DNA of 56,315 nt, from contig CAJOIF010000008.1 in the NCBI GenBank assembly GCA_905234765.1, forward strand, positions 1-56,315, written 5' to 3'. The position numbers and the translations under genes are program-made. How positions within the stretch are numbered: position 1 is the stretch's first letter; every line of letters begins with the position of its first letter. Source of the stretch: an uncultured Bacteroidales bacterium. GTDB taxonomy: Bacteria > Bacteroidota > Bacteroidia > Bacteroidales > F082. Below the pieces are notes generated by a model, which made no database searches, had not been told where the DNA came from, and saw nothing but the letters and a program-made list of their open reading frames with translations. Positions 8,242 to 50,635 of this stretch are shown here, piece after piece.

Positions 8242-10785
8242 TCACTTCACAAATCGCCCCACTTTCTTAATTCCATTCCCCTCCAAACCTTCAACAAAAT
8301 ATGTCCCTGAAACCCATTCGGAAACGTCCAAACGAACTTCCGAAGTCCCATAGGCTGAAACTGATTTGATGAGCTGTCCCAAAGTATTGTAAATGTTGAC
8401 TGTCTGCAATCCTTCGGCTTCAATCGTGATGACAGACGAAGCGGGAACGGGAAATATCTTTATGGAATCCGTTTTGCCTTGATTCTCAGCGATTCCCGTT
8501 GGGTCGAAAGTGTCGTTGCCGTCGGTGAGCCATTCGAGGCTGAAGTTATAGAACACCGTCGAATAGCCCGAAGTGCCTGCGTATTCTTCCTCGACATACA
8601 GTCCGATGGTGCCGTCGGGAAGGATGCAAAGCGAAGAATAGGCCGAGCTGTAAGGTACGATGCATTTGCGCACGGGCCAGGTCTCGCCTTCATCGTAGCT
8701 CACATAGACCGACACGTTGGTGCGCGAGCTGCCGTAAGGCACCGAATGGAGCAGGCGGTTCCTGTCGTGGCCTTGGTTCTCGGAGGTGAAACGGATTAAG
8801 TCGCCGTTGCAAGCAGGCGCGGTGATGTCGGTCCAAGTCGAGGTGGTAGGCTGCCAGGTTTTGCCACAGTCCTCGGAGATGTTGTACCAGCGGTTGCCCC
8901 CGTGACGGATGCTCATCAGGATGCGACCATCAACCAATTCGGTGACCTTGGCCTCGTCGCCACCTACTGAAGCGCGACCCGACACCTGCCAGGTCTGGCC
9001 GTTATCATCAGAATAGACGGCATAGTTGTTCAGCGATTGTGCCGAGCCTTCGCGGATAGCGGCCACAAACATGATACGACCCTTGGAGGTACGCAGGCCA
9101 TTGCCCGAACCAAAAAACGAGGCACGCCAAGTTTGGTGTTCAGGAATAATGCAGTTGTCGCCAAAGATGAAATGGGTGATGTCTTCGGGTTCCGTCCAGG
9201 TTTGTCCGTTGTCGTAACTCCTTGAGATATACGAATGGATGGGGTTCGACGGGGTGGAGTTCCAAAGTCCCACGCCGCCTACGAAGGCCGCGATGAGGCC
9301 GTTCTCGTCGTTACTCCAAGCCAAGGCGCAGTCGCCGAAGCCATGGTTGACACCCGTACCCAAGGCGATGGTGGTTGGCTCGCTCCATGTGTGGCCGCCA
9401 TCGGTGCTGCGATTGCAGACGATGTCGATGTCTTGCGGCAGGTCGCCTTCGTTGTATTTGCGTTTGTCGGTGACCGCCACGATGCTTCCGTCCTTCGCCG
9501 TGATGACGGCAGGGATGCGGTAATTCATGGAGTTATAGTCGCCGGGCTGATAAATCAAGGTGTGGGCGAGAATGATTTCGCGGTTGCCTGCTGGCGAGGG
9601 ATTGGCGAGTTCATAAGTCTCTTCTGCCGTCGTAATCGACTTCAAAGAAGCATCAATCACATTGCCTTCGGTGGCGTTGTCGGCCACGTGGGCCACGACC
9701 CAAAGGTAGTTGGTGCCATAGACAAGGTTGCCTCCCAAGTTGCAGGTCATGTCGCCCGAGGTTGGAGCAACACTTCCGAGCAAAATGGCGTTTTGAGGAT
9801 GGCGTTCATCGAAACTATTGGTAGTGCCCGTGGAATAGACCTTGATTTCTTCAATATCATTCAAATCCGTTGTCCCCTCAAGATTCAATGTCATGGATCG
9901 CAGTCCAACCTCGGCATTAACGTCAGTACCGTCCACAGCCACCGCTGCCTTGAGTAGCACATCATTTTCATTGCCACGCCCCGTCTTGCGCGTGTCTTGG
10001 GTCAGGGTAACATTCCATATCCCAGAACCGCCAAAATTGAAATTAACCAGTTGGGCATCGTGACCATGACCCGAAATGTCGTGCAAAACGTTGTCAGTGA
10101 CCCAGGTTGTAGAGAATTCATAAGCGGCTTTTAAGTGATCTGCCATGAAAAAACTTATATCATATAAATCATCCGCACTCATGTCAACACCAATCTCATC
10201 AGCGTTCAATGCCATATGGTAGAATCTTACATTGCCAAACGAGCCGTTGCAATAGTTGGTGGGCTGACTGCCGCTGTTGCCCGCTCCTACAAACACATCG
10301 TAGGTGTTGGTGACAGCCCAGTCGTTTACTGCCGCCGCCCAAGTACTTTGGGTCTCACCATTATGATAAATCCGAATCTCGTTATTGGCGCGGTCCACGA
10401 CGAGGGCAAAGTGCATCCACTCGCCCGCCGGCACCGTAACGCCCGTATAAACCGACAAGGCATGACCCGAAGTGGAAGTGGGCGTGTTAAGGCCCAAGGA
10501 TTGGCCTGCACTTCCCGAGCCAAAGAACTCATATCCCGTGCGTTCGTCGCCCGAGTTTTGCACCGACATATCGCGTTTGCACACATAACGCGGGTAGTTG
10601 GTGTAAGTCTCGTTGCGCACCCATCCCGTAACAGTGAAACTCTGGTCGGCAGCGATGTTGAAGTCTTCGTGATGCGGGATTCGCATGTACTGATCGGTGC
10701 CGTTGAAAGTGATGTAATGGGCGGGTTGTGCGAAAGTGGTCGTCATAGCCGTGAGCAGGACAACTAGGGTAAGGAGTTTCTTCAT
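8242..10785 (-). CDS. Secreted exo-alpha-sialidase with LamG-like domain and T9SS signal
   Basis: This 847-residue GH33 sialidase would remove terminal sialic acid from host or dietary glycans. In order: signal peptide 1-19; LamG/concanavalin-like domain about 22-225; BNR-associated N-terminal domain about 257-405; six-blade propeller from about 408, with the arginine-bearing YRIP motif at 422-425 and five Asp boxes (first STDGGHTW at 460-467, then SYDNGQTW, SDDNGQTW, SEDCGKTW, SYDEGETW); T9SS type A sorting domain about 775-847 (IFPVPASS...LGQLIKSV). The protein should be exported to the surface. No nan catabolic genes, SusC/D pair or sialic acid transporter lie nearby, so it may act as a scavenging or virulence hydrolase. 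Confidence 0.9.
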   Translation of the reverse strand: MKKLLTLVVLLTAMTTTFAQPAHYITFNGTDQYMRIPHHEDFNIAADQSFTVTGWVRNETYTNYPRYVCKRDMSVQNSGDERTGYEFFGSGSAGQSLGLNTPTSTSGHALSVYTGVTVPAGEWMHFALVVDRANNEIRIYHNGETQSTWAAAVNDWAVTNTYDVFVGAGNSGSQPTNYCNGSFGNVRFYHMALNADEIGVDMSADDLYDISFFMADHLKAAYEFSTTWVTDNVLHDISGHGHDAQLVNFNFGGSGIWNVTLTQDTRKTGRGNENDVLLKAAVAVDGTDVNAEVGLRSMTLNLEGTTDLNDIEEIKVYSTGTTNSFDERHPQNAILLGSVAPTSGDMTCNLGGNLVYGTNYLWVVAHVADNATEGNVIDASLKSITTAEETYELANPSPAGNREIILAHTLIYQPGDYNSMNYRIPAVITAKDGSIVAVTDKRKYNEGDLPQDIDIVCNRSTDGGHTWSEPTTIALGTGVNHGFGDCALAWSNDENGLIAAFVGGVGLWNSTPSNPIHSYISRSYDNGQTWTEPEDITHFIFGDNCIIPEHQTWRASFFGSGNGLRTSKGRIMFVAAIREGSAQSLNNYAVYSDDNGQTWQVSGRASVGGDEAKVTELVDGRILMSIRHGGNRWYNISEDCGKTWQPTTSTWTDITAPACNGDLIRFTSENQGHDRNRLLHSVPYGSSRTNVSVYVSYDEGETWPVRKCIVPYSSAYSSLCILPDGTIGLYVEEEYAGTSGYSTVFYNFSLEWLTDGNDTFDPTGIAENQGKTDSIKIFPVPASSVITIEAEGLQTVNIYNTLGQLIKSVSAYGTSEVRLDVSEWVSGTYFVEGLEGNGIKKVGRFVK

Positions 10786-26063: not shown

Positions 26064-28436
26064 TTATTTCTGAAGGTTCACTTTCTGCACTTTCACGCCG
26101 TTGGAAGTTTCGATGCGAACGATGTAAATACCTTGACTATAATTGTTTAAGTCGATAACAGCATTGTCTTGGGCGGTCGTCTCAATTTGGCGTTGGCCGA
26201 GCATGTTGCTCACGGTGATGTGCATCATGCCGTTGCCGTTCACGTTGAGTAGGCCGTTGGTCGGGTTGGGATAGACATTGATTCTTTCATCGATGTTCTC
26301 TTCGATATCGGTGATCCAAAACCCCACATCCCACCATTCCGATTCGCATTGCTCTTCTCCGCGGATATATACGCAATTTACGGAATAGACGACCCATTCG
26401 CCTTGAATTAGGTCGTAGGTGTTGTCGAAATACTCATAACTGTTGTTGCCGTCATAAGGAATCTCGGCAATGAGTTCTTCGTCTTTGAAGACTCCTGTTG
26501 AACGAAGCACCTTGAAGTGATGCAGGTAAGAGGTGATGTCGGGGCGATCCCAAGAAATGTAAGCACCAAACTCCTCACTATTGTGCCATTGGTATTCACC
26601 ATGAATGTTCTGCACGGGATAGCACACCAACGGAGCTTCCTCACAGTTGTTCTCGTAGGTCATGAAGACACCGTCTTCGAGCTCGTCGCTGACGTAGAGT
26701 TCATTACCATCGTAGTCAAAGATGGTGAAGGAGCACTCATAGTCGGTGTCATATTCCTCATAGGCATGATACCAGCCGTGGTTCCAGATGAAGTTGAGTT
26801 CGCCTTTCAGCAGGGGTAAGGTGAGCGTCTGTTCAGAGCCTTCGGTCATCGTCACGACGGCGATGCGGTTGCCGTTGGCGTCGGTTACGCTGATGGCAGC
26901 ACCTTTCCAGCCGTCACCGCCCTGGTCGTGGAGGTTGAAGACGATATCGCACTTGTCGCCTACGAGGATGCTCTGGTAGGTGGTGCGGCTGATGCCGGCT
27001 TCGTTGGTGACATAGATGGCGTATTCGTAGAGGCCAGGGGCGAGGCCATTGTCTACGTATTCCATGGTGGCACCCACTTGCACGTCGGTGAAGACGGCAA
27101 TTTCTTCGAAGTTACGGCGTACAGTGACCGATTCTAATGAGGTTAACGCGTTGCCGTTGAGGTCGAGTGTAGGATTGGTCCAACTGAGCAAGACACCGTC
27201 GAAGGTCTCGTTTTCGGAGATGCTTATTTTTTCAATAGGTTGGGGCCGGTTGAAGTATTCACTGTTTTGGGGGACGATGTGCCCCGTGAAGCCATTCACC
27301 ATATTGAAGGCGTAGCGGGTGGTGTTGAGTGCTCCGATGGGACACCATGCGTCGTCGCGGCCGCTCCAGCCCCAGTTGAAATGGAAGTAGTCATTCTCGT
27401 CATAGCCGTCGCACACGAAAGCATGACCGCCTGCGCCACCGTCATCGGATCCAGTGTAGAACAACGGGAGACCTTCGTCCAAACCGCCGTCCTTCAGCAC
27501 TTGGGCCCATTCCTCGTTGGTGTAGCCCCAGCCTGGGATGATGCTTCCGTAGTTGGTCTCATGCTCGTCGCAGGTGTAGCGGAAATAGCTGCGCAATGCC
27601 GACGGAACCACGAATCCATAGGCACCGCTGCCGTTGGGGCTATACTGCATGTCGACGGAAATGCCGAGATGGTGCAGCAGCTGGGCAATGTAGAACCATT
27701 CTTCTTCTGTACTGGTGGAGTCCAAGACATTGGGCATCAGTTCGAAATGGTATTCTGTTTGGCCAAAGTTGGCACTTTGTTGGGTATAACCATCGGGGTT
27801 GTAGATGTGAGACCCTGTGCCTTGTGGTGGCCAATCCCAGAACTTCATCACTTGGCCCATGGCAGTAGCCACACAGCCGGCGTAGACATAGCCGCCGTTG
27901 CCTTCCGGGTCGGCAGGGCATTGGCTGTTCCAAGGATAATTCTGGTTCCAAAGGGTCTGACACAACTGGTCGACCACGGCACGGGCTTGGCGACCTTTTT
28001 GGAGGTTGCCCGACTCATCCACCGATTTCCATTCTGCGATGATGTCAGGTGTGGCGGAGAGGTTGTGCTCGCGCACGTATTGGATTTCCTCGCGGAAGCC
28101 GTTGAGGGTGAACTGGAAGCCATCGGCCACGTCGCTGGGGTCAAACTTGCCTGTGGTGGAATAGGCGAGGATGGGTTTCACGCGGTCGTCGCCCGCCACG
28201 ATAACGAATCCTTCGCCACCTTTTACGTTGAAGACATAATAGTCAGTGTTACTGCGGTCTGTAGCGGTGCTGGCCAAACAGAGTTGTATGTCGGCATTTC
28301 TCTGAGCTATTGCAGTGGTGCTCAAGAACTTGGTGCCTATTTTTTGGGCCTTTTGTTGGTCGACAGGGCCAGCCATCGCACTACTGATGCAGATGGCAAT
28401 AGCGCATATGGTGAGTTGGAGTTTTTTCATGTTCAT
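26064..28436 (-). CDS. Secreted C10-family cysteine protease with T9SS signal
   Basis: This 790-residue protein is a streptopain-like C10 peptidase (relatives include interpain A and SpeB). It has a signal peptide 1-22, an inhibitory propeptide to about residue 150 (with DYYVFNVKGGEGFVIVAGDDR typical of Spi-type prodomains), and a catalytic domain with nucleophile C188 (YAGCVATAMGQVM) and base H338 (GGHAFVCDGY). Fibronectin-III-like beta modules follow from about 400 to 700, with a T9SS type A sorting domain at the end (NVYPNPTNGLLNV...LGQRQIET). It is made as a zymogen and exported to the surface. An alternative ATG two codons later would not change the product meaningfully. Confidence 0.9.
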   Translation of the reverse strand: MNMKKLQLTICAIAICISSAMAGPVDQQKAQKIGTKFLSTTAIAQRNADIQLCLASTATDRSNTDYYVFNVKGGEGFVIVAGDDRVKPILAYSTTGKFDPSDVADGFQFTLNGFREEIQYVREHNLSATPDIIAEWKSVDESGNLQKGRQARAVVDQLCQTLWNQNYPWNSQCPADPEGNGGYVYAGCVATAMGQVMKFWDWPPQGTGSHIYNPDGYTQQSANFGQTEYHFELMPNVLDSTSTEEEWFYIAQLLHHLGISVDMQYSPNGSGAYGFVVPSALRSYFRYTCDEHETNYGSIIPGWGYTNEEWAQVLKDGGLDEGLPLFYTGSDDGGAGGHAFVCDGYDENDYFHFNWGWSGRDDAWCPIGALNTTRYAFNMVNGFTGHIVPQNSEYFNRPQPIEKISISENETFDGVLLSWTNPTLDLNGNALTSLESVTVRRNFEEIAVFTDVQVGATMEYVDNGLAPGLYEYAIYVTNEAGISRTTYQSILVGDKCDIVFNLHDQGGDGWKGAAISVTDANGNRIAVVTMTEGSEQTLTLPLLKGELNFIWNHGWYHAYEEYDTDYECSFTIFDYDGNELYVSDELEDGVFMTYENNCEEAPLVCYPVQNIHGEYQWHNSEEFGAYISWDRPDITSYLHHFKVLRSTGVFKDEELIAEIPYDGNNSYEYFDNTYDLIQGEWVVYSVNCVYIRGEEQCESEWWDVGFWITDIEENIDERINVYPNPTNGLLNVNGNGMMHITVSNMLGQRQIETTAQDNAVIDLNNYSQGIYIVRIETSNGVKVQKVNLQK

Positions 28437-38145: not shown

Positions 38146-39138
38146 ATGATAGAGACAGACATTCGTGAACTGAACGAAAAAATCCAGCGTGAGAGTCAAT
38201 TCCTTGACCTCATCAACCTCGAAATGAATAAGGTCATCGTCGGACAAAAACAGATGACCGAACGCCTTTTGATCGGCTTGTTGGCCAACGGCCATATCCT
38301 GCTTGAGGGTGTGCCAGGTCTAGCCAAGACATTGGCTATCAAGTCGATGGCGAGTGCCATTGATGCCGGCTTCGCCCGTATCCAATTCACTCCTGACCTG
38401 TTGCCTGCCGACCTCATCGGCACGCTGATCTACAGCCAGAAAAAGGAGGAGTTTGTGGTGCGTCGTGGCCCCATCTTCGCCAACTTCGTGCTGGCAGATG
38501 AAATCAACCGTTCGCCTGCTAAGGTGCAAAGTGCTTTGCTTGAAGCCATGCAGGAGCATCAGGTGACCATCGGCGATGAGACCTTCAAGCTGCCGGATCC
38601 ATTCCTCGTGATGGCTACCCAAAACCCCATCGAGCAGGAGGGTACCTATCCGCTGCCTGAGGCACAGGTGGACCGATTCATGCTGAAGGTGATCATCAAC
38701 TACCCCAAGAAGGACGAGGAGAAACTGATTCTGCGTCAGCAGATTGCAAGTGCTGGCGCGAAAATCAACGCCGTGGTGAAGCCCGAGGATATCATCCGCG
38801 CCCGCGAAGTGTGCCGCGAGATTTACCTTGACGAGAAGATTGAGAACTACATTACCGACATCGTCTTCGCCTCCCGTTATCCTTCTGATTACAAGCTGAA
38901 GAAGTTTGCCAACATGATCAGCTACGGTGGCTCGCCGCGTGCCACCATCAACCTGGCCCTTGCCGCAAAGGCCTATGCCTTTATCAAGCACCGTGGCTAT
39001 GTCATTCCCGAGGACATCCGTGCCGTGGCTCCCGATGTGATGCGTCACCGTATTGGTCTGACCTACGAGGCTGAGGCTGAAAATATTACCACTGAAGAAA
39101 TCATCACCGAAATATTGAACACTGTTGAAGTGCCGTAA
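38146..39138 (+). CDS. MoxR-family AAA+ ATPase
   Basis: This 330-residue MoxR ATPase has Walker A GVPGLAKT (55-62), Walker B VLADEINRSPAKVQSALLEAMQE, and sensor I MATQNPIEQEGTYPLPEAQVDRF. MoxR proteins work with VWA-domain proteins as chaperone-like assembly factors; the next genes encode DUF58 and two VWA proteins. It opens the Bat operon and lies 87 bp before the DUF58 gene, a gap that contains a hairpin repeat. Confidence 0.93.
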   Translation: MIETDIRELNEKIQRESQFLDLINLEMNKVIVGQKQMTERLLIGLLANGHILLEGVPGLAKTLAIKSMASAIDAGFARIQFTPDLLPADLIGTLIYSQKKEEFVVRRGPIFANFVLADEINRSPAKVQSALLEAMQEHQVTIGDETFKLPDPFLVMATQNPIEQEGTYPLPEAQVDRFMLKVIINYPKKDEEKLILRQQIASAGAKINAVVKPEDIIRAREVCREIYLDEKIENYITDIVFASRYPSDYKLKKFANMISYGGSPRATINLALAAKAYAFIKHRGYVIPEDIRAVAPDVMRHRIGLTYEAEAENITTEEIITEILNTVEVP

Positions 39139-39225: not shown

Positions 39226-40104
39226 ATGGAATCAACAGAAATATTCAAAAAAGTCCGCAAAATCGAAATCAAGACGCGAGGCCTCTCGAACCACATCTTC
39301 TCGGGACAGTACCACAGTGCATTCAAAGGGCGTGGTATGACCTTTAGCGAGGTGCGTGAGTATGAGTACGGCGACGACATCCGCAACATTGACTGGAATG
39401 TCACGGCCCGTTTCAATCGGCCTTTTGTCAAGATTTTTGAGGAGGAGCGTGAGATGACGGTCATGCTGCTCATCGACGTGTCGGGCTCCAATGACTTCGG
39501 CTCGCAAAGTCAGTCGAAGCGTGACCTGACTGCCGAATTGGCAGCAGTATTGGCGTTTTCTGCCATCCAGAACAACGACAAGGTCGGCGTGATTTTCTTC
39601 AGCAGCAAGATAGAGAAGTTCATCCCGCCGAAGAAGGGCAGCTCGCACATCCTGCGCATCATCCGTGAAATCGTCGACTTCAAGCCAGTTGAGCGTGGCA
39701 CCGACATTGGCGAGGGCCTGCGTTTCCTGACTTCGGCCATCAAGCGTCGCACTACGGCCTTCCTCATCTCCGACTTCATGACGGACAAGAGCTTCGAGAA
39801 AGAGATGCAGATTGCTGCCAACAAGCACGACCTCGTCGCCCTGCGCATCACCGACCGCCGTGAAATGGACATTCCCAAGGTGGGCCTGGTGAAGTTCCGC
39901 GACTCGGAAACGGGCAAGGAACGCTGGGTGGACACGTCGAGCCGTGCCTGGCACAATGCCTACCAGCAGATGATTCAGTACAAATCGGCGGAATTGAACC
40001 GTGAGTTTACCAAACATGGCATCGACAACTCGTTGATTTACACCGATGAAGACTATGTAAAGCCTTTGATGCAACTCTTTAAGAAAAGGGAGGCAAGAAG
40101 ATGA
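39226..40104 (+). CDS. DUF58-domain protein of the Bat operon
   Basis: This 292-residue protein is of the DUF58 family, with the signature YEYGDDIRNIDWNVTARFNRPFVKIFEEERE and a VWA-like core LLIDVSGSNDFGS with a D-x-S-x-S metal-site pattern. DUF58 proteins nearly always follow moxR. It lacks signal peptide and membrane spans. Its stop overlaps the next start by 4 bp (ATGA). It probably acts with MoxR on the membrane VWA proteins encoded downstream. Confidence 0.9.
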   Translation: MESTEIFKKVRKIEIKTRGLSNHIFSGQYHSAFKGRGMTFSEVREYEYGDDIRNIDWNVTARFNRPFVKIFEEEREMTVMLLIDVSGSNDFGSQSQSKRDLTAELAAVLAFSAIQNNDKVGVIFFSSKIEKFIPPKKGSSHILRIIREIVDFKPVERGTDIGEGLRFLTSAIKRRTTAFLISDFMTDKSFEKEMQIAANKHDLVALRITDRREMDIPKVGLVKFRDSETGKERWVDTSSRAWHNAYQQMIQYKSAELNREFTKHGIDNSLIYTDEDYVKPLMQLFKKREARR

Positions 40105-41156
40105 AGAAAACTATTTTGTTTTTGATATTGGCACTGATAACGTTTGGCCTCAAGGCCCAAAATGTGGAGGTGGAAGGCAAGGTGGAGAGCAAGGACGTGC
40201 AGGTGGGTAAGCCTTTCACGCTCGATTTGAGCCTCAAGGTACCCTACGGCTGGTTCGTGGAATGGAACGATTTCGCCATCGACACGCTGTCGGAGCAAAT
40301 CGACATCATCAAGCGCGGCCACGTGGAACGCACCGCCGATGCAGACAGTAATGTTATTGTCCGTCAACAGCTTACCTTGATGACCTTCGACACGGGACAA
40401 ATTCGACTGCCTGCCGTTGGCCTGCTATACGCTCGGTCGTTCGACGACCCAAACCGTTTGCAAGCCTTCACGGAACCCATTGATTTGTATGCCACTACGA
40501 TAACCGTTGATACTTTGCAGCCTTACAAGCCCATCGTGGAGCCCATCGCCGCACCGATTCAGATGAAAGAGGTGTTCCCATGGATTCTTGCCTTGCTCGT
40601 TGCGGTTTTGTTGGGCATTGGCGTTGTGTTGCTGGTCAAGCGGCGTAAGCGCAAGGTGGATGCTGATGGTAACATCGTCCGAGGCCCTGTCATCCCGCCT
40701 TACGACAAAGCTGTCGGCGACTTGAAGAAGTTGCGCGAAGAAAAGATGTGGCAGACGGGTAAGGTGAAGGAATACTTCTCTTCGCTGACTGACATTGCCC
40801 GTGAGTACATCGAAGGCCAATTCGGCGTGAATGCTGTCGAGATGACGACCGATGACATCATGGAGGAAATCAAGCCGTTGCGCTTCCCGAAGGAAACCTA
40901 CGACAAGCTGAAAGACACTATGGAAGTCGCTGATTTGGTGAAGTTCGCAAAGTATTCCGCTTCAACCTTTGAAAGCGACACCGCCTTGAGTAGCATGACG
41001 GAGTTTGTCAACGAGAGCTACGCGCATTATCAAAAGACATTGTCGCCATCTGCGTCCTCGCAGACGGAATCTGATTGCGAGACGCAATCAGCGACAATGA
41101 AGTCAGACTGCGAGACGCAGTCAGCGACAATGAGGGAGGAGGTGAAAGATGTTTGA
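40101..41156 (+). CDS. Bat-operon membrane protein with signal peptide and repeat-derived tail
   Basis: This 351-residue protein has a signal peptide (ending LKA-QN), an extracytoplasmic beta-rich region of about 150 residues (VEVEGKVESKDVQVGKPFTLDLSLKV-like, resembling the start of BatD), a membrane span near 160-180 followed by KRRKRK, and a cytoplasmic helical region. It corresponds to the small protein often found between DUF58 and batA in Bacteroidota. The C-terminal ~37 residues contain SDCETQSATM twice and are encoded by DNA made of three successive hairpins (41050-41122), unlike the rest of the gene. The stop overlaps batA by 8 bp. Confidence 0.78.
   Translation: MKKTILFLILALITFGLKAQNVEVEGKVESKDVQVGKPFTLDLSLKVPYGWFVEWNDFAIDTLSEQIDIIKRGHVERTADADSNVIVRQQLTLMTFDTGQIRLPAVGLLYARSFDDPNRLQAFTEPIDLYATTITVDTLQPYKPIVEPIAAPIQMKEVFPWILALLVAVLLGIGVVLLVKRRKRKVDADGNIVRGPVIPPYDKAVGDLKKLREEKMWQTGKVKEYFSSLTDIAREYIEGQFGVNAVEMTTDDIMEEIKPLRFPKETYDKLKDTMEVADLVKFAKYSASTFESDTALSSMTEFVNESYAHYQKTLSPSASSQTESDCETQSATMKSDCETQSATMREEVKDV
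41050..41122. repeat. Three successive hairpins inside a coding tail
   Basis: CTGCG-tcct-CGCAG (41050-41063), CTGATTGCG-aga-CGCAATCAG (41071-41091) and GACTGCG-aga-CGCAGTC (41106-41122) follow one another. The last two are variants of one 33-bp unit and encode the duplicated decapeptide of the preceding protein's tail. Confidence 0.75.
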
Positions 41157-42150
41157 GAACATTGAATTTGCGAATCCCAAGCTGCTGTGGTTCTTGCTCT
41201 TGGTGCCCGCTTTGATCGTCTGGTACGTTGTGCGCCACAAGAAGCAGGAAACCGCGTTGAGCTTTTCCGACCTGAAAGGAATGGTCAAGCTGCCCAAGAC
41301 CTGGAAAGCCTATTTGCGCCATCTGCTTTTTGCCATGAAAATGGCGGCTTTGGCGCTGCTCATCGTGGCTTTGGCCCGTCCGCAAAGCGCTTCGACCAAC
41401 TCTACTTCCAACATCGAGGGTATCGACATTGTGTTGGCGATGGATGTCTCGGGCTCCATGTTGGCCCGCGACCTCAAGCCTGACCGACTGACGGCTGCCA
41501 AGAACGTGGCCTCCGACTTCGTGAAAGGTCGCCCGGGCGACCGCATGGGATTGGTCATCTTCTCGGGCGAGACCTTCACCCAAGTGCCCTTGACTACCGA
41601 CCATGGCGTGATGCTCAACATGCTGGCCGAGATGAAGAATGGCCTCATTGACGACGGCACAGCCATCGGTGACGGTTTGGCGACAGCCATCAGCCGACTC
41701 AAGGACAGCGAGGCCATCTCGAAAGTGGTCATTCTGTTGACCGATGGCATGAACAACGCGGGCTCCGTTGACCCATATACGGCTGCCGAAATCGCGAAAC
41801 TCTATGGCATCCGTGTTTACACCATCGGCGTGGGTACTTATGGCACTGCGCCCTATCCAGTGCAGAATCCTTTTGGCGGCACCGTCCTCCAACAGATGAA
41901 GGTTGAGATTGACGAGAAACTGCTGACCACCATCGCCAACTCGACGGGAGGCAAGTATTTCCGCGCCAACAATAACCAGAAGTTGGACGAGATTTATCAG
42001 GAAATCGACAAGTTGGAACGTTCCAAGATTGAGGTAACGGAGTTCCGCCGCCTCCACGAGGAGTTCTATCCCTTGGTGGCATGGGCTTTGGCCTTACTGC
42101 TGCTCGAGTTCCTTTTGCGTAAGACTATTTTCAGAACTTTAACCGATTAA
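41149..42150 (+). CDS. batA: BatA: membrane VWA-domain protein
   Basis: This 333-residue protein has two N-terminal membrane spans (about 10-28 and 62-80), a VWA domain with MIDAS motif MDVSGSML and a DGMNNAG loop, and a C-terminal membrane span (ALALLLLEFLL) with basic end. It is one of the Bacteroides aerotolerance proteins, thought to form a membrane complex with BatB-E and MoxR. The batB gene starts 4 bp after its stop. It is about 330 residues as in other species. Confidence 0.92.
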   Translation: MFENIEFANPKLLWFLLLVPALIVWYVVRHKKQETALSFSDLKGMVKLPKTWKAYLRHLLFAMKMAALALLIVALARPQSASTNSTSNIEGIDIVLAMDVSGSMLARDLKPDRLTAAKNVASDFVKGRPGDRMGLVIFSGETFTQVPLTTDHGVMLNMLAEMKNGLIDDGTAIGDGLATAISRLKDSEAISKVVILLTDGMNNAGSVDPYTAAEIAKLYGIRVYTIGVGTYGTAPYPVQNPFGGTVLQQMKVEIDEKLLTTIANSTGGKYFRANNNQKLDEIYQEIDKLERSKIEVTEFRRLHEEFYPLVAWALALLLLEFLLRKTIFRTLTD

Positions 42151-42154
42151 AGTC

Positions 42155-43204
42155 ATGGAAAACGTATTGCGATTTGAACACCCTGAACACCTTTACTGGT
42201 TGATTGTCATCCCGGTACTGGCCATTATCTATATCCTGTTCCGCATCGGTCAGAAGCGCCGTTTTGAGCGTTTCGCACAAATTGGGATGCGCGAACAATT
42301 GATGCCGAGTTTTTCTACCCGCCGTGCTAATTTCAAGTTCGTCATCTTTTTGCTGATGGTTGCCTGTGTCATCTTGGCCATGGCCAACTTGCAGAGCGGC
42401 AGCAAGATGGAGGAGGTGAAGCGCGAGGGCATTGACCTTTATTTGGCTGTGGACGTCTCCAATTCAATGAATGCGGAAGACATCGTCCCAAGCCGTCTTG
42501 AACGCTCCAAACAGGCCATCAACAAACTCATCTCCGAGATGAAGGGCGACCGTATTGGCGTTATCGTTTTTGCCGACAAAGCTTTCGTGCAGTTGCCCAT
42601 CACCACCGACTATTCGGCGGCGAGAATGTTTCTCTCCACGGTCAATACGAGTCTGGTGGCCTCGCAAGGGACAGCCATCGCCGAGGCTATCCATCTGGCG
42701 ATGAAGTCGTTCAGCGAAGAGGAGCACAGCAAGGCCATCGTCATCATCTCCGATGGCGAGGACCATGAGAATGACGCTGCCGTGAAAGCTGCCCAAGAAG
42801 CGGCCAAACACAGTATCCGCATCTATACTATTGGCATGGGCCTTCCCGACGGTGCCCCGATTCCGGAATACAACCAATATGGGCATCAGACCGGCTACCG
42901 CAAGGATCGCCTGGGTAACACCATCATCACCAAACTCAATGAGCCGATGCTGCAACAGATAGCGACGGCGGGCAACGGACTTTATGTCCGCGCTAGCAAT
43001 TCCAACGTCGGTTTGGAGAAGATTTACGATGATATTGAGAAACTCGACAAGACAGAAATCGAAGCCAAAGTCTTCACGGACTATGAGGATCAGTTCCAGT
43101 GGTTTGTGGGGACGGCCATCATCTTGTTACTCATCGAAATCCTAATTTCATCAAGTAAGAAGGAGTGGGAGAGGAAGTTTAATATTTTTGAGAAGAAGCA
43201 ATGA
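42155..43204 (+). CDS. batB: BatB: membrane VWA-domain protein
   Basis: This 349-residue protein has the BatA plan: N-terminal spans about 13-30 and 62-78, a VWA domain with VDVSNSMN as MIDAS motif, SDGEDHEN in the metal-site loop, and a C-terminal span (VGTAIILLLIEILI). Its stop overlaps batC by 4 bp (ATGA). BatA and BatB probably interact in the inner membrane with their VWA domains facing the periplasm. Confidence 0.92.
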   Translation: MENVLRFEHPEHLYWLIVIPVLAIIYILFRIGQKRRFERFAQIGMREQLMPSFSTRRANFKFVIFLLMVACVILAMANLQSGSKMEEVKREGIDLYLAVDVSNSMNAEDIVPSRLERSKQAINKLISEMKGDRIGVIVFADKAFVQLPITTDYSAARMFLSTVNTSLVASQGTAIAEAIHLAMKSFSEEEHSKAIVIISDGEDHENDAAVKAAQEAAKHSIRIYTIGMGLPDGAPIPEYNQYGHQTGYRKDRLGNTIITKLNEPMLQQIATAGNGLYVRASNSNVGLEKIYDDIEKLDKTEIEAKVFTDYEDQFQWFVGTAIILLLIEILISSSKKEWERKFNIFEKKQ

Positions 43205-44829
43205 AAACGATAGGTAAATATCTGATAAACATAGTATTGTCAATGATTATCATGTCGGCTTCGGCGCAGACTGATGAGAAATTGATACGAAAGGGTAACC
43301 GCCAATACAAGAAGGCAAGCTTTACCGAGGCGGAGGTGAGTTATAGGAAGGCCATCGAGGCACGTCCCAACAACGCCAACGCACAGTTCAACCTTGGTGA
43401 CGCACTCTTCAAGCAAGAGAACTATGACGCAGCCTACGAAGCCTTCCAGAAGGTGGTGGAGATGTCGGCGGATGCCAAGCTGAAGTCGAACGCGGTATTC
43501 AACATGGGCAATTGTCTCCTCGCGCAGGACAAGTTTTACGATGCCTTCAATATATATAAGGTGTCGCTGAAACTGAATCCTGAGAACGAAAACGCTTTGT
43601 ACAACCTTGAATATTGCCGGGCACATCTGATTAAGAGCAAGATTTGGATTGCCCGTCCAGAGCATGGAACGGTGGAGGCGAGTGAGACAGAAGCCTTTAA
43701 TGGTCAGCGAATTACGCTTTCTTCTAAGTCGGACGACAATTATGCTTTGTCGGAATACATTGTAGTGAAGGCCGACAATCAAGAAGTGCGCGTGGACGTG
43801 AGTGGCAACAGTTTCATCATGCCCAAGTTCGATGTCGTTGTTACTGCGCAGTTCAAGCAGGCGCATAAGATTGACATTGACAGAAACATCCAGCATGGCA
43901 CGATTTGGGCCGACAAACAACGCGCCATCGAAGGGCAACAAGTGGTCTTGAAGGGCAAGGGCGAGGACGGCTTCATGGTGGATAAGTTCACGGTGTATAA
44001 GACGGGAAGCCGCAACGACACGGTGCCTGTCAATGACACGATGTTCCAGATGCCCGATTTCGATGTGACGGTGACAGCAACATTCCGTACCGCACTGAAA
44101 GTCAGTATCGACACCGTTTCCAACGGCACCATTTCGGTGACCGATAGTTTGGCGAAACCTGGACAGAATATTGCAGTCATCGTGAAACCTGACAAGGGTT
44201 TCCAATTGGGTGACTTGCGCGTAGTCAGCAAGGATGGCTCGGAATCAGCACCTGTTTCAGATGACAACGTTTTCCAAATGCTTGATTCTGATGTGACCGT
44301 GAAGGCCAATTTCGTGGAAGCCACCGATTATTATAAAGTGGTGGCCGACACTACACTCGAAGGTGGCCATGTGCTGTTGGATGTTGACGATGCCACACGC
44401 CGCGAGACGGTGGCGTTGCGCAACGCACCTGAGCCAGGCTATCAGTTTAAGGAATACGTCATCCATCAGGTGGGCGACACATCTGTAAAGGTACAGCCAC
44501 TCGGCAATTTCTTCACTATGCCTGATTTCGACGTGGAGGTCTCTGCCGTCTTTGAGAAGAGCGAAGGTCAGGATCAGCAGCAACAGCAGCAGAACCAAGA
44601 CCAGCAGCAGGATCAACAGGAGCAGCAAGAACAACAACAGCAGAATCAAGACCAACAAAGTCAAGACCAGCAGCAACAACAGCAGCAACAGCAAAGTCAG
44701 GAAATGTCGAAGGAAGATGCCCAGCGTATGTTGGATGCCCTTGAAAACCAAGAGAAGAAGACGATGGAAAAAGTCAACGAACAGAAAGTCAGACAACAAC
44801 CCAAAAAGAAGAGCGATAAAGATTGGTAA
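43201..44829 (+). CDS. batC: BatC: TPR protein with four inserted beta-type repeats and glutamine-rich tract
   Basis: This 542-residue protein is about twice the usual BatC length. In order: signal peptide 1-22; TPR-type helices about 25-143 (KGNRQYKKASFTEAEVSYRKA, NAQFNLGDALFKQENYDAA); four repeats at 147-219, 222-296, 299-372 and 377-452, each ending in an F-x-M-x-x-x-DV-x-V-x-A-x-F motif such as FQMPDFDVTVTATF; a Gln/Asp tract about 457-499; and the normal BatC C-terminal segment (MSKEDAQRMLDALENQEK). The repeats resemble divergent InlB B-repeat/Flg_new_2 domains of surface proteins. A periplasmic location follows from the signal peptide. It overlaps batB by 4 bp and precedes batD by 1 bp. 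Confidence 0.88.
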   Translation: MKTIGKYLINIVLSMIIMSASAQTDEKLIRKGNRQYKKASFTEAEVSYRKAIEARPNNANAQFNLGDALFKQENYDAAYEAFQKVVEMSADAKLKSNAVFNMGNCLLAQDKFYDAFNIYKVSLKLNPENENALYNLEYCRAHLIKSKIWIARPEHGTVEASETEAFNGQRITLSSKSDDNYALSEYIVVKADNQEVRVDVSGNSFIMPKFDVVVTAQFKQAHKIDIDRNIQHGTIWADKQRAIEGQQVVLKGKGEDGFMVDKFTVYKTGSRNDTVPVNDTMFQMPDFDVTVTATFRTALKVSIDTVSNGTISVTDSLAKPGQNIAVIVKPDKGFQLGDLRVVSKDGSESAPVSDDNVFQMLDSDVTVKANFVEATDYYKVVADTTLEGGHVLLDVDDATRRETVALRNAPEPGYQFKEYVIHQVGDTSVKVQPLGNFFTMPDFDVEVSAVFEKSEGQDQQQQQQNQDQQQDQQEQQEQQQQNQDQQSQDQQQQQQQQQSQEMSKEDAQRMLDALENQEKKTMEKVNEQKVRQQPKKKSDKDW

Positions 44830-44830
44830 T

Positions 44831-46696
44831 ATGAAAAGAGTATTCATTTTGTTTTTGATGCTATGCCCGCTATGGCTATGGGCGCAGGACGACCCGACCT
44901 TGACCGTTTCGGCAAAGAAACAGGTAATGGTAGGTGAGCGGTTTCAGGTGGTGTTTGAAGCCAATTTTGAAGGCAAGAATTTCACCGCGCCCTCTTTCGA
45001 CGGTCTCACCGTTGTGGGCGGGCCTTTCACTTCGACGAGCACGAGTTTCCAGATGGTGAACGGCTCGATGTCGCACACGGTGAAATGCACCTATACCTAT
45101 GCATTGCAAGCCTATCAGGAAGGCACCGTCCATGTGGGATCAGCCTCGCTGACGCAAAAGGGAAACAAGATCAGCAGTGAGCCGTTTGACATCAAAGTGG
45201 TACCTGACGACGGCAGCCATGCCACAGCTTCTGGCGGTACAGGCGGCGGTTCATCGCAGAACGGGGCTTCACAAAACACCAACGACCCCCAAGTCAGCGG
45301 CAAAGACTTGTTCCTCAAGGTGATACCATCAAAGAAATCGGCCTATGTGGGCGAACAGGTGGTGCTCACCTATAAGCTTTATACCAAGGTGCCCGTTTCT
45401 TCCCTCTCTGTCGGGAAGGCTCCGTCTTATGCCGGTTTTTGGACCAAGGACATCACCGAAAACAACGGCGGCACCTTGCGCCAAAGCAGTGAGTACATCA
45501 ACGGTGTAGAATACACCACCGCTGAGATTCAAAAAATGATTGTAGTGCCGCAGCGCAGCGGTAGCCTTGCCCTCGACCCGATGAGCATTGAATGTATCGC
45601 CCAAATCCGCACCCAAAACACCCGCCAGAGCAACGATCCTTTCGACATCTTTTTCAATGACCCATTCTTCAATCGAAACATTACGAATGTTCGTAAAGAA
45701 TTGTCAACCAATAGTTTAAAAATTGAAGTAAAGAACTTGCCCGAAAGCGGTAAACCTGCATCGTTTGCAGGTGCGGTAGGCAATTACACCTTCAAGTCGG
45801 ACATTGATAAGACCCAACTCAAGACAAACGAGGCTTTCACCTTGACCTTGTCCGTTTCGGGAACAGGCAATATCGAACTGCTGCAACTGCCTGAACCCAC
45901 TTTCCCGCCCGACTTCGAGGTTTACGACCCGAAAATCACCACTTCGTCCAACAACACGGCCAACGGACTGTCGGGAACGAAAAAGGCCGAATACCTTGTT
46001 ATTCCGCGTCGTGCCGGCAGTTTCGACATTGCGCCCGTTGAGTTCTCCTATTTCAACCCAGGCAATGGTACCTATTCGGTGTCATACTCCGATACTTACA
46101 CCATCCAAGTGGAAAAAGGCGCGGGTGGCGAAGGCAGCGAAGGCACCATCTATGCCTCCAATCAGGAGGGCATCAAGTATCTTGGCAGCGACATCCGTCA
46201 TATTATGACCGGCAATCCGCACTTGAGGCCGACCCATTCGGCTTTCTTCGCCACAGTGCCTTATTTCATCGTCCTGCTCGCCATGTTGCTCGTTTTCATC
46301 ATTATACTCATGGCCTCGAAGAAGCGTGAGCAGCTGAAGCAGGACAACGCTGCCAACCGCAACCGTAAGGCCGACAAGGTGGCGCGTGGCCGTCTGAAGA
46401 AAGCCAACCAGTATCTGAAGGTCAAGGACCAAGACCATTTCTATGTGGAGATGTCGCAGGCACTGTGGGGCTATATCGCTGACAAACTGGGTATCGAGCG
46501 CTCTAAGCTGTCGATGGATACGGTGAGTGAGACAATGAAAGGCCAGCAGGTGCCCGACGACCTCATTAAGCAGTTCGTTGACACGCTCAACAGCTGCGAG
46601 TTTGCCCGTTTTGCTCCTGGCAGTGCCGAAGAGAAGATGGACGACCTCTATCGTCTTGGTATTGAAGTGATTACTAAAGCTGAAAAAGTCTTGTAA
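44831..46696 (+). CDS. batD: BatD: oxygen-tolerance protein with membrane anchor
   Basis: This 621-residue protein has a signal peptide (MKRVFILFLMLCPLWLWA-QDDP), a long periplasmic region of tandem beta-sandwich domains (MVGERFQVVFEANFEGKNFTAPSF is the BatD/PF13584 signature), one membrane span near residues 475-497 (FIVLLAMLLVFIIILMA), and a cytoplasmic helical tail. I chose the ATG at 44831, 1 bp after batC; the longer open frame overlaps batC's Gln-rich region and encodes unlike sequence. Its first gene-proximal repeats also contain a Gly/Ser/Asn-rich linker (GGTGGGSSQNGASQNTN). Confidence 0.9.
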   Translation: MKRVFILFLMLCPLWLWAQDDPTLTVSAKKQVMVGERFQVVFEANFEGKNFTAPSFDGLTVVGGPFTSTSTSFQMVNGSMSHTVKCTYTYALQAYQEGTVHVGSASLTQKGNKISSEPFDIKVVPDDGSHATASGGTGGGSSQNGASQNTNDPQVSGKDLFLKVIPSKKSAYVGEQVVLTYKLYTKVPVSSLSVGKAPSYAGFWTKDITENNGGTLRQSSEYINGVEYTTAEIQKMIVVPQRSGSLALDPMSIECIAQIRTQNTRQSNDPFDIFFNDPFFNRNITNVRKELSTNSLKIEVKNLPESGKPASFAGAVGNYTFKSDIDKTQLKTNEAFTLTLSVSGTGNIELLQLPEPTFPPDFEVYDPKITTSSNNTANGLSGTKKAEYLVIPRRAGSFDIAPVEFSYFNPGNGTYSVSYSDTYTIQVEKGAGGEGSEGTIYASNQEGIKYLGSDIRHIMTGNPHLRPTHSAFFATVPYFIVLLAMLLVFIIILMASKKREQLKQDNAANRNRKADKVARGRLKKANQYLKVKDQDHFYVEMSQALWGYIADKLGIERSKLSMDTVSETMKGQQVPDDLIKQFVDTLNSCEFARFAPGSAEEKMDDLYRLGIEVITKAEKVL

Positions 46697-46699
46697 CGA

Positions 46700-47482
46700 A
46701 TGAAAGGAACCGTCAAAATGAGACAATACACCTTATTATTAATATGTGTTCTTGCCCTTTCGACATCGGGAGTGCAGGCAAAGACTGAACCTGTGCAATG
46801 GTTTGAACAAGCCAACGCCCTTTACAACGAGGGCAACTACGATTCGGCCATGGTGCTTTATGAGGAAATCCTGGCTGCCGACATGGAATCGGTGCCGCTT
46901 TATTTCAATATGGGTAACGCTTATTACAAGATGGGCGAATACCCGATGGCCATCTATTGTTATGAGAAAGCCCTGAAACTCGACCCGGGTAACGAAGACG
47001 TGTGCAACAACTTGAACATCGCCAACCTGGCCATCGTGGATAAGGTGGAACCGGTGCCGCAGTCGTTCATTGTGAAGGGTTGGAACGGACTGAAATCATG
47101 GTTGTCGAGCGACCAATGGGCTTATGTTTCCCTAGCGGCGTTTGCCCTGTTGCTCGTTTCCCTTGGCCTTTTTCTGCGGGCGCGTAGAATGGGATGGCGC
47201 AAACTTGGTTTCTTTGGAGGTGTCGCCATGGTGGTGTTGATAGGGCTGTCGGTAGTGATGGCCTATCAGTTGAAACATGCCGCTTTGACGGAAGACCAGG
47301 CCATCGTGATGACCCCTACAGTGACGGTGAAAAGTTCGCCTAGCACCGCCAGTGTCGACCTCTTTGTGCTTCATGAAGGTACAAAAGTATCTCTCCTTGA
47401 TGAGGCCAACGGATGGTGCAAAATAAGAATTGCCAATGGTAGTGTCGGATGGCTTCAAGCCGACTTCATGCGCCCTTTTTGA
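46700..47482 (+). CDS. batE: BatE: TPR and SH3-like membrane protein
   Basis: This 260-residue protein ends the Bat operon. It has a signal peptide (starting at the ATG at 46700 or 46718), TPR repeats about 32-112 (NALYNEGNYDSAMVLYEEI, PLYFNMGNAYYKMGEYPMAIYCYEKAL), two membrane spans about 140-160 and 172-190, and a C-terminal bacterial SH3 domain (VKSSPSTASVDLFVLHEGTKVSLLDEANGWCKIRIANGSVGWL). The TPR and SH3 modules probably face the periplasm and bind partner proteins or peptidoglycan. It starts 4 bp after batD. Confidence 0.9.
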   Translation: MKGTVKMRQYTLLLICVLALSTSGVQAKTEPVQWFEQANALYNEGNYDSAMVLYEEILAADMESVPLYFNMGNAYYKMGEYPMAIYCYEKALKLDPGNEDVCNNLNIANLAIVDKVEPVPQSFIVKGWNGLKSWLSSDQWAYVSLAAFALLLVSLGLFLRARRMGWRKLGFFGGVAMVVLIGLSVVMAYQLKHAALTEDQAIVMTPTVTVKSSPSTASVDLFVLHEGTKVSLLDEANGWCKIRIANGSVGWLQADFMRPF

Positions 47483-47653: not shown

Positions 47654-50635
47654 ATGAAAAAGAGATTTTTACCTTTCATGATGGCAGTTTTGGTTTTTGG
47701 CCAATTCGCTATCGCTGACAATGGTGGGCACTATGTGCCACGCACTCAAGGAAATGCATCGGCTGAAAGCTTCATGGGCAGTCTGCGTGCCAACCAGCAC
47801 ACTGGACTGATTGATCCCGCCTTGATGATTCAAGCCATGCAGAATCAGGACAAGGGTACCAATGGCGACCTTTATTGGCTTTCAATGGGACCTGACAATA
47901 TGGGCGGCCAAACCACGGCAGTCCTTTATGACAACCAAACCAATTGGGTCTACATCGGCTCAAAGGGCGGTGGTGTCTATGTGACCTATAATAACGGTAC
48001 GACTTGGAAGCGTGTAAGCGAGCAGAATATGATGGTCAGCTGCATGGTTCAGGACGAGGATGGTACCATCTATGTCGGTACTGGCGATGGCGGCAACAAG
48101 ACTGCCGAACTCAACGGCCTTTCCACCATGATGAACTATGAAAATAGTTTCATGGGCTCTGGTATCTACACCATTCGTTCGGGCGGTGTCGTCGAAGTCC
48201 TTCCTTCCACCGTTCCCGCCATGAACAACGACACCGCAGCCTGGTCGTTTGTCAATGGCCTGGCCATCTCTGGCAAGAAACTTGTTGCAGGCACCAACAA
48301 AGGCCTCAAGTATTCGAGTGACAATGGAACCACTTGGAATCCGGTTTTGGACGCTAATGGCAATGCTCTCACCGGTATTACCATGGATGTGAGAGCCCTC
48401 TCAGACGGCACCCTTCTCGCTTCCGTCGGTGGCAAGCTTTACATCGGCACGGTCGACCATATGGTGCTCCGTTCGGGTGGCACCGCCAATAACCCGCAAA
48501 CCGACTCTTTGGGCAACATCATCTCTATACCTACGGGTTCCGACTTGATGGATATCGCTGTTTCGCCCAACAATGACAATGTCATTTACGTTTCTGGCAT
48601 CAAAAACAGCAATGGTTATCATACTGGCATCTATGTCTCTCAGGACAAGGGTGCCACTTGGGAAGTGGCTTTGCCCGCTGTGACCTCTGGCATGGGCTAC
48701 AACGTGTATGAAGGTTATGGCCAATACAACCATGGCATTGTGGTGGATCCCGCTGACGATGGTCGTCTTTACATCTTGGGTTACCATCTCTGGAAGATTG
48801 AAAGAACCGAAAGCGGTGTTGGCAACTTCCGCTGCGAAAGGTTGACTGGCGATTCCTATTTCTATATGGAGAATTATCTCCACGTAGGTCTCCACTCTAT
48901 GATGTTCAATCCCAAGAATGTACATGAGTGCTATATTGGTACAGATGGCGGTATCTACAAAGCCAATGCTAGCAACGGTGTGCTTACTTTCAGCAACTGC
49001 AACCGCGATTACATCACCTCGCGTATGTTCGGCGTGGCCTATTCAGGAAAAGACAGCCGCGTCCTTGCCGCTGGCATCGACCATGGCACTGTCTTGATTG
49101 AAGGCGATGCAACCCTGAATACCATGAACCATGGTGAGTGGATTAACCCGTCCGTGTTGGGCAACAACGGTCTGTTTGATGATACCTATCATGCAGGTCA
49201 CTGCGCTATCTCACAGATTAATCCCAATACGATTTTTGTGACCACAAAAGGTGGCGACCATGTCTATCGTTCCGAAACAGCCGGTGAAGACTGGGTGTCC
49301 ACCAACTTCATGAGCAGCCTTTCGCTTACCTCTTCGCCTGCGTTCCGCATGCCCATTCTGCTCCAGGAGAACTTTAATGATGATCTCAATCCCGCAACGG
49401 TGTGGGTCAAGAATAATGATACTTTGCCCATCGCCGCTGGCACTACGATGAAAGTCATCAGCAACAACAACTTCCCGTTCGATTATCAGTTCACTCAAGA
49501 GCTTGCCGTTGACGACTCTATTGAGGTGCACGATCCCATCAGCTCGAGATTCTATCTTGCTGACAAGGATGCTATCTACACCACTCGCATGAACCTCGAC
49601 TTCGCTAAGGAAACGGTGTGGTATGAGCTGGTCCAAGGCAAGGTTGACTCTGTTGGCTACATGGGCGAGTTCTCTGGCACTCCGATTTGCATGACGATGG
49701 ATGCTGCTGGCGAGAACCTCTTTGTCGGTACCATCGACGGTCAGGTCTATCGTTTCATGGGCGAAGGTTCTGGTACGGTTGACTCTGTTTGGTATACCTA
49801 TAAGCCCGATGGTTCAGTGCAGAATACCTATTATCAGCACTTCGTCACCATCGACAAGATGACGCTTCCCACCGATGATGGACAATGCATCACATCCATC
49901 GCCGTCGACCCGAGAGATTCGAATAAGGTTATCATTACCCTCGGCAATTATGGCAATGACGCTTATGTGCTCTATTCTAGCGATGCTTTGTCTGACAACC
50001 CGACCTTTGTCAGCAAGCAAGGCAACCTGCCTAAGATGCCCATCTATTCCTCGTTGATTGAAATGGCTACGGGCGACATCATCCTTGGCACCGAGCACGG
50101 TATCTATTCTACGACTGATATCAATGCTGCCAATTGGGTGAAGGACAGCCAGATCATGGGCGATGTGCCGGTGATGGAACTGAAACAGCAACTCCTCTCT
50201 CAAGAGGACGTCATTGTGACCGCTCCCGATCCGGAAGGTGGCATTTTCACCACGGTCTATCCTGGCGTTCATAACAAGGGTATCATCTATGCCGCCACCT
50301 ACGGCAGAGGTGTCTTCCGCTGCGAGAATTACAAGCAGGAAAGCGGTACCTCTGTTCCCGAAACGTCTGGTGATGTCGTTGAGATCAACGTGTCGCTCTA
50401 TCCCAACCCGGTTCACGGACTGGCTACTGTGAGCTTCAACGTGGTCGGCAACGCCAGCGTGAGCTATCAAGTGTTCGACCTGACGGGCCGCATGGTGATG
50501 AACCAGACTATGGGCCGTTACACCGAAGGCGAATACGAAATCAGAATCAACACCGAAAACCTCAGCACGGGCTCTTACATCATGCGCCTCAACCAAGGCA
50601 ACAACAGCCGCTGCGTGAAGTTCATGGTGTTCTGA
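47654..50635 (+). CDS. Large secreted T9SS protein with beta-propeller repeats
   Basis: This 993-residue protein has a signal peptide (MKKRFLPFMMAVLVFGQFAIA) and a repeated propeller pattern of the sortilin/Vps10/BNR type: WVYIGSKGGGVYVTYNNGTTWKRVSE, then GLKYSSDNGTTWNPV, IYVSQDKGATWEVAL and VYRSETAGEDWVSTNF. It lacks the YRIP motif of sialidases. The last ~80 residues (about 915-993) are a T9SS type A sorting domain (VSLYPNPVHGLATVSFNV, FDLTGRMVMNQTM). It is likely surface-anchored; ligand is unknown. It has its own promoter and terminator, separate from the Bat operon. Confidence 0.85.
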   Translation: MKKRFLPFMMAVLVFGQFAIADNGGHYVPRTQGNASAESFMGSLRANQHTGLIDPALMIQAMQNQDKGTNGDLYWLSMGPDNMGGQTTAVLYDNQTNWVYIGSKGGGVYVTYNNGTTWKRVSEQNMMVSCMVQDEDGTIYVGTGDGGNKTAELNGLSTMMNYENSFMGSGIYTIRSGGVVEVLPSTVPAMNNDTAAWSFVNGLAISGKKLVAGTNKGLKYSSDNGTTWNPVLDANGNALTGITMDVRALSDGTLLASVGGKLYIGTVDHMVLRSGGTANNPQTDSLGNIISIPTGSDLMDIAVSPNNDNVIYVSGIKNSNGYHTGIYVSQDKGATWEVALPAVTSGMGYNVYEGYGQYNHGIVVDPADDGRLYILGYHLWKIERTESGVGNFRCERLTGDSYFYMENYLHVGLHSMMFNPKNVHECYIGTDGGIYKANASNGVLTFSNCNRDYITSRMFGVAYSGKDSRVLAAGIDHGTVLIEGDATLNTMNHGEWINPSVLGNNGLFDDTYHAGHCAISQINPNTIFVTTKGGDHVYRSETAGEDWVSTNFMSSLSLTSSPAFRMPILLQENFNDDLNPATVWVKNNDTLPIAAGTTMKVISNNNFPFDYQFTQELAVDDSIEVHDPISSRFYLADKDAIYTTRMNLDFAKETVWYELVQGKVDSVGYMGEFSGTPICMTMDAAGENLFVGTIDGQVYRFMGEGSGTVDSVWYTYKPDGSVQNTYYQHFVTIDKMTLPTDDGQCITSIAVDPRDSNKVIITLGNYGNDAYVLYSSDALSDNPTFVSKQGNLPKMPIYSSLIEMATGDIILGTEHGIYSTTDINAANWVKDSQIMGDVPVMELKQQLLSQEDVIVTAPDPEGGIFTTVYPGVHNKGIIYAATYGRGVFRCENYKQESGTSVPETSGDVVEINVSLYPNPVHGLATVSFNVVGNASVSYQVFDLTGRMVMNQTMGRYTEGEYEIRINTENLSTGSYIMRLNQGNNSRCVKFMVF

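Follow-up and report, generated by a model that had tools for sequence, protein, structure and literature searches.

The window, that is, the whole stretch of 56,315 nucleotides analysed here (contig CAJOIF010000008.1 of assembly GCA_905234765.1, from an uncultured Bacteroidales bacterium), contains a batC gene whose product carries four repeats of the Flg_new_2 family directly behind its tetratricopeptide repeat (TPR) domain. Such repeats are not general in BatC but are restricted to one clade in the genomes sampled. The window protein is thus a variant form of the known BatC, specific to that clade, for which the evidence of selection is strong and the function is one that we infer. We regard as about evenly balanced the proposal that it is a true BatC in which an array gained once, in the ancestor of the clade, serves as a periplasmic rod or spacer.

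Results

Architecture of the repeat-bearing BatC

The gene and the parts of its product, numbered in amino acids (aa), are as follows.

43201..44829, + strand: batC, 542 aa, with TPR domain, four Flg_new_2 repeats, Gln tract and C-terminal segment (open reading frame, Pfam, homologues)
43201..43269, + strand: N-terminal signal-like segment, aa 1-23 (translation judged by eye)
43270..43632, + strand: TPR domain, aa 24-144 (Pfam TPR models; helices in the predicted model)
43633..43860, + strand: beta repeat 1, aa 145-220 (best PF18998 stretch, 154-220; motif; model)
43861..44091, + strand: beta repeat 2, aa 221-297 (motif; model; position-specific clade)
44092..44319, + strand: beta repeat 3, aa 298-373 (motif; model; position-specific clade)
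44320..44559, + strand: beta repeat 4, aa 374-453 (mean pairwise identity 0.80, the highest of the four; model)
44566..44700, + strand: Gln/Asp-rich linker, aa 456-500 (composition; predicted disordered, with a predicted local distance difference test score (pLDDT) < 50)
44701..44826, + strand: conserved C-terminal segment and KDW tail, aa 501-542 (invariant alignment columns; helix 504-531 in the model, mostly pLDDT < 50)

The batC ATG shares four bases with the stop codon of BatB (42155-43204). A Pfam-A search with BatC returned several TPR models and PF18998 (Flg_new_2), the latter in four stretches (E = 3.9e-29, 100.9 bits against a gathering cut-off of 23.6). This bears out the preliminary description of this DNA, which had likened the repeats to Flg_new_2 or InlB-B surface domains and had each of them end in F-x-M-x-x-x-DV-x-V-x-A-x-F. 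The motif does close all four repeats, at aa 205-218, 282-295, 358-371 and 438-451, and the repeats are 29-36 percent identical to one another. From its signal-like N-terminus the chain continues through the TPR domain, the repeats (145-453) and the Gln tract to the C-terminal MSKEDAQRMLDALE...KDW. The repeats therefore lie between the TPR domain and the C-terminal segment as had been described, whereas the Gln tract precedes that segment and does not follow it.

Within the Gln tract (~aa 456-500), 33 of the 46 residues counted (aa 456-501) are Gln, encoded by a mixture of CAG (19) and CAA (14). A Leu-rich open frame of 196 aa on the opposite strand (44257-44847, -) is most likely these CAG/CAA codons read on the other strand. 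In an alignment of 66 rows, including 14 short BatC proteins, S503, A507, A513 and E518 are invariant and K540-D541-W542 are at least 90 percent conserved. Ordinary Bacteroidota BatC resembles the window protein in its position between BatB and BatD, its TPR domain, its Gln-rich linker and a C-terminal segment that ends in KDW or similar, but has no four-repeat array after the TPR domain, which is followed by a median of 93.5 residues (n = 56) as compared with 398 in the long form (n = 62). The Gln tract had been presented as a further novelty. This did not hold up, as repeat-less BatC proteins have an equivalent linker of 56.8 ± 8.9 residues (range 27-84, n = 49). Because both the tract and the C-terminal segment occur in ordinary short BatC, only the repeats are unusual; and because linker and tail are comparable in the short proteins, the array was added to BatC and not exchanged for another part.

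The best NCBIfam match of the protein was NF047507 (TPR_BatC_Lepto), a model that is Leptospira-specific by name, at 64.6 bits against a cut-off of 175. Since the N-terminus is signal-like as judged by eye, BatC is probably exported to the periplasm. No lipobox cysteine was visible near the N-terminus in the translation, again judged by eye, and the sorting domains of the type IX secretion system (T9SS; Por_Secre_tail, CHU_C) were absent among the Pfam matches of BatC.

The repeats are restricted to one clade

A phmmer search found 1223 relatives, the 120 best of which are 510-576 aa long. One of them, P0002, comes from a separate record cluster and is 100 percent identical to the window protein as rounded. 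A repeat-profile search found exactly four repeats in 313 of 314 homologues (window protein included) and a single repeat in the remaining one, P0216. These 314 proteins were the best matches to repeat-bearing queries inside a length window; having been gathered in this way, they describe the long form only and not BatC at large. Repeats of a family that is abundant in the genome could misassemble, and the preliminary description had itself named an assembly error joining two genes as a way in which the array might prove spurious. We consider an assembly error or chance fusion refuted, given the near-identical P0002, the 313 proteins with four repeats, and the recurrence of this architecture throughout a single clade, next to conserved Bat genes.

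We then asked how far the repeats extend beyond the long form. In a scan of GTDB genomes with the window protein, repeats were present in 26 and absent from 54 of the best 80 of at least 248 confirmed relatives, although two of the 54 repeat-less loci are cut off inside the Gln tract; the scan patterns were derived from the long protein, and the result is not an unbiased census. Among 149 sampled genomes of the GTDB family that includes bacterium F082, a match to the BatC TPR domain was found in 139 and none in 10. Forty of the 139 are repeat-bearing, 39 as seen in the sequence and one (G141) as inferred from a frame of 571 aa. Identity of the TPR match was 56-89 percent in these 40, as compared with at most 49 percent for the best matches in the other 99, which lie in frames of no more than 332 aa (one, in G100, a fragment only). 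Six family genomes have an additional TPR match that is weaker than the first and lies in a frame of 480-1031 aa. Across the phylum, with three candidates scored per genome, 327 of 395 genomes matched, and among the matches listed only that of G007, the bacterium F082 genome at the centre of the search, extended over the whole length. Seven other long frames among the listed matches (571-631 aa) all proved to be BatB-BatC fusions. A BatB-BatC fusion is also described for Leptospira biflexa (PMC3557215). Such fusions are likewise lineage-specific rearrangements of batC, but there BatC is joined to BatB, whereas in the window BatB is a protein of its own and BatC contains a newly inserted array of domains.

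The idea that the insert is common to Bacteroidales BatC can thus be set aside for the genomes examined, most of whose BatC proteins lack repeats, as do the other Bacteroidota BatC proteins examined. A set of 125 loci, several of them from the same genomes, comprised 61 with four repeats (two of the frames open), three with one repeat (from two genomes) and 61 without repeats (five open). The repeat-bearing loci include bacterium F082 and Candidatus Limimorpha equi. Sample names in several of the records mention rumen, abomasum, duodenum, reticulum or horse, the remaining records carrying isolate codes or run accessions only, and by record titles the clade is known largely from the ruminant and horse gut.

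Origin of the array

A FastTree tree was built from concatenated BatA and BatB of 88 of the 125 loci plus the window (37 loci were dropped for incomplete BatA or BatB). All 33 repeat-bearing tips (32 loci and the window) fell into one clade with a support of 0.988, the sister of which, with midpoint rooting, consists of repeat-less relatives. In a second tree, 193 repeats from 50 distinct proteins formed four clades according to their position in the array, with supports of 0.977, 0.901, 0.991 and 0.829. Because the bearers form one BatA/BatB clade and the repeats sort by position, the four-repeat array would most simply be ancestral to the clade and vertically inherited.

As for where the module came from, all 40 repeat-bearing genomes contain at least 16 PF18998 matches, those in BatC counted, and 29 of the 40 contain at least 36. 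The median in the 109 other family genomes is 3, with 39 having none. Five PF18998 regions were taken from the F082 genome, and the proteins of three were scanned. Two of these (L134:1420-4821 and L136:227-3688) are C25-family proteases with a T9SS sorting domain; each contains PF18998 in five stretches, of which the best-scoring is flanked by the protease region and the sorting domain. The third protein contains four stretches but lacks a sorting domain. The C25 proteases resemble BatC in having several PF18998 repeats per chain and differ in the T9SS sorting domain, absent from BatC in Pfam. The module may have been recruited from such a pool of Flg_new_2 domains in secreted proteins of the same genomes; no donor was identified.

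Each repeat is under purifying selection

The ratio of nonsynonymous to synonymous substitution rates (dN/dS; pooled Nei-Gojobori estimates from 14 non-overlapping pairs) was 0.061, 0.059, 0.060 and 0.046 for repeats 1-4, as compared with 0.068 (TPR domain), 0.042 (Gln tract) and 0.026 (C-terminal segment) in the rest of the protein. Mean pairwise identity was 0.74 for the TPR domain, 0.71, 0.70, 0.75 and 0.80 for repeats 1-4, and 0.91 for the C-terminal segment; the repeats are about as conserved as the TPR domain. The low ratios indicate that each repeat is under purifying selection. One could envision instead a near-neutral accretion, in which an array from an abundant genomic repeat family was kept without any specific role, as the plentiful PF18998 matches in these genomes and the presence of one repeat only in two lineages (see below) might suggest. 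The uniformly low dN/dS (0.046-0.061), the retention of exactly four repeats in nearly all homologues and the TPR-like level of identity argue against this, and we think it distinctly improbable.

Predicted structure of the array

In an AlphaFold model, the first strand of the array begins two residues past the last TPR helix, and the gaps between repeats 1 and 2, 2 and 3, and 3 and 4 are 1, 1 and 4 residues. Modelled alone, the repeats reached a mean pLDDT of 93.2. They are thus predicted to be closely linked beta domains. Foldseek and VIA-align searches with the repeats gave weak matches to beta chains only, the best Foldseek match being to arrays of small beta domains (E = 8.7e-6), and we therefore assign no fold family; complement control protein (CCP) modules and immunoglobulin-like chains, seen among the weak Foldseek matches, are alike in being arrays of small beta domains. 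Searches with the whole of BatC returned mainly TPR proteins.

Four consecutive beta modules could be taken to mean that the array reaches across most of the periplasm, linking an inner-membrane Bat complex to the outer membrane or a surface target, along the lines suggested in the preliminary description. The BatA-like Bat homologue BB0173 of Borrelia is indeed an inner-membrane protein with a periplasmic von Willebrand factor type A (VWA) domain (PMC5700661). BatC, however, shows neither a lipobox cysteine by eye nor a T9SS sorting domain in Pfam, and a single repeat suffices in two lineages. We find a periplasm-spanning array hard to credit.

Contraction of the array and length of the linker

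One-repeat BatC occurs in two lineages that are nested in the repeat-bearing clade and separate on the tree, one represented by L111 (genome G149) and the other by L117/L106 (genome G123). The single repeat of L111 is an in-register hybrid, like repeat 1 in its N-terminal part and like repeat 4 in its C-terminal part. L117/L106 retain a domain like repeat 1. P0216, in the protein collection, is identical (100 percent) to the L111 variant and possibly comes from the same genome, and no second copy of the L117 variant was seen among the 120 matches listed of 4796.

Both contracted forms have a long Gln linker, of 79 residues in L111 and 75 in L117, which is 25-29 residues above the mean of the 46 multi-repeat proteins (50.3 ± 2.5, range 47-61). 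When the domain border was set slightly differently, the linker measured 47.9 ± 3.0 residues (16-64) in 303 of 313 four-repeat homologues, ten giving no measure, as compared with 77 in P0216. These observations suggest that a longer linker compensates for lost repeats, although two cases are not proof.

The Bat operon and its surroundings

The gene order of this Bat (Bacteroides aerotolerance) operon, MoxR, DUF58, unnamed gene, BatA, BatB, BatC, BatD, BatE, in which batC is flanked by batB and batD, agrees with the earlier assignment of the protein as BatC.

38146..39138, + strand: MoxR-type AAA ATPase (Pfam PF07726)
39226..40104, + strand: DUF58/VWA protein (Pfam PF01882)
40101..41156, + strand: unnamed Bat-operon gene in the DUF58-BatA interval (weak PF07584 match, E = 0.05)
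41149..42150, + strand: BatA (PF07584 and VWA; NCBIfam BatA_Lepto, under cut-off)
42155..43204, + strand: BatB (VWA and PF07584; NCBIfam BatB_Lepto, under cut-off)
44831..46696, + strand: BatD (PF13584, E = 4.2e-44)
46700..47482, + strand: BatE (TPR and SH3_3, Pfam)

The preliminary description had suggested looking for matching extensions in the partner proteins. No domain-sized one was found in BatA (32 proteins against 14 from sister loci), BatB (61 against 14) or BatE (33 against 10). The median length of BatD is 622 residues alongside repeat-bearing BatC (n = 33) and 610.5 in sister loci (n = 10), a difference of about 12. The unnamed gene (40101-41156, +) ends in a short tandem duplication, with SDCETQSATM present twice. 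Right after BatE, a gene (47654-50635, +) encodes a 993-aa protein in which a T9SS sorting domain accompanies weak matches to VPS10/propeller models. Such a sorting domain is also present elsewhere in the window, in a C10-family peptidase with an N-terminal Inhibitor_I69 (Spi) domain (26064-28436, -) and in a BNR-repeat neuraminidase-like protein with a laminin-G-like domain (8242-10785, -).

Discussion

We propose that four Flg_new_2 domains were gained in a single event in the ancestor of one Bacteroidales clade (bacterium F082, Candidatus Limimorpha), where the TPR domain meets the Gln-rich linker. A complex of Bat proteins has been proposed, and a bat mutant of Bacteroides fragilis had reduced aerotolerance, while bat mutants of L. 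biflexa had no oxidative-stress defect (PMC3557215). In the model that we favour, BatC would be exported to the periplasm and its TPR end would dock on a membrane complex of BatA, BatB and BatD. The four linked domains would then act as a rod, holding the flexible Gln linker and the C-terminal segment at a greater distance from the TPR domain than they have in ordinary BatC. A more far-reaching version makes the Bat complex a long-reach machine, in which a rod of fixed length, drawn from the repeats of the lineage's secreted proteins, parts the TPR docking end from a C-terminal effector segment, spanning to the peptidoglycan or outer membrane, and the longer Gln linker partly offsets the loss of three domains; this we put forward only as an unlikely extension.

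Several observations weigh against a rod gained once. The tree is a single FastTree run rooted at its midpoint. The predicted template-modelling score (pTM) was 0.51 for full-length BatC and 0.66 for the repeats alone, and at such low values the relative placement of the domains, and hence the shape and length of the rod, is not established. Two lineages make do with one repeat. Because linkers of repeat-less BatC range up to 84 residues, linker length is no simple function of array length, and in ten repeat-less sister proteins the linker is 57-67 residues long, apart from one outlier of 27. With regard to the proposed pool, 16 of the 109 other family genomes also carry at least 16 PF18998 matches, and the excess in the repeat-bearing genomes is not independent evidence because it reflects largely one clade. 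Finally, a binding role would also be consistent with the fixed copy number and with how strongly repeat 4 is conserved. The main rival is accordingly that the repeats are not a spacer but a binding surface, for an envelope glycan, peptidoglycan or a client protein, which would give the Bat complex a new ligand; we hold this to be somewhat unlikely.

In the open-licence PubMed Central literature we found no description of a BatC with Flg_new_2, no paper on PF18998, and none on InlB B-repeat, tetratricopeptide and Bacteroidetes together. InlB B-repeat with Bacteroidales and rumen led only to a paper on carbohydrate-binding screens, and by literature listings the name F082 occurs alongside rumen and Bacteroidales in 96 papers.

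Bat operons are found throughout the Bacteroidota sampled and in spirochaetes. The near-fixed array and its two separate contractions provide a natural experiment, which suggests that BatC has two functional ends, formed by the TPR domain and the C-terminal segment, and that the distance between them may matter. The finding also suggests that a conserved envelope complex of a mostly uncultured gut lineage has taken up a module from secreted proteins.
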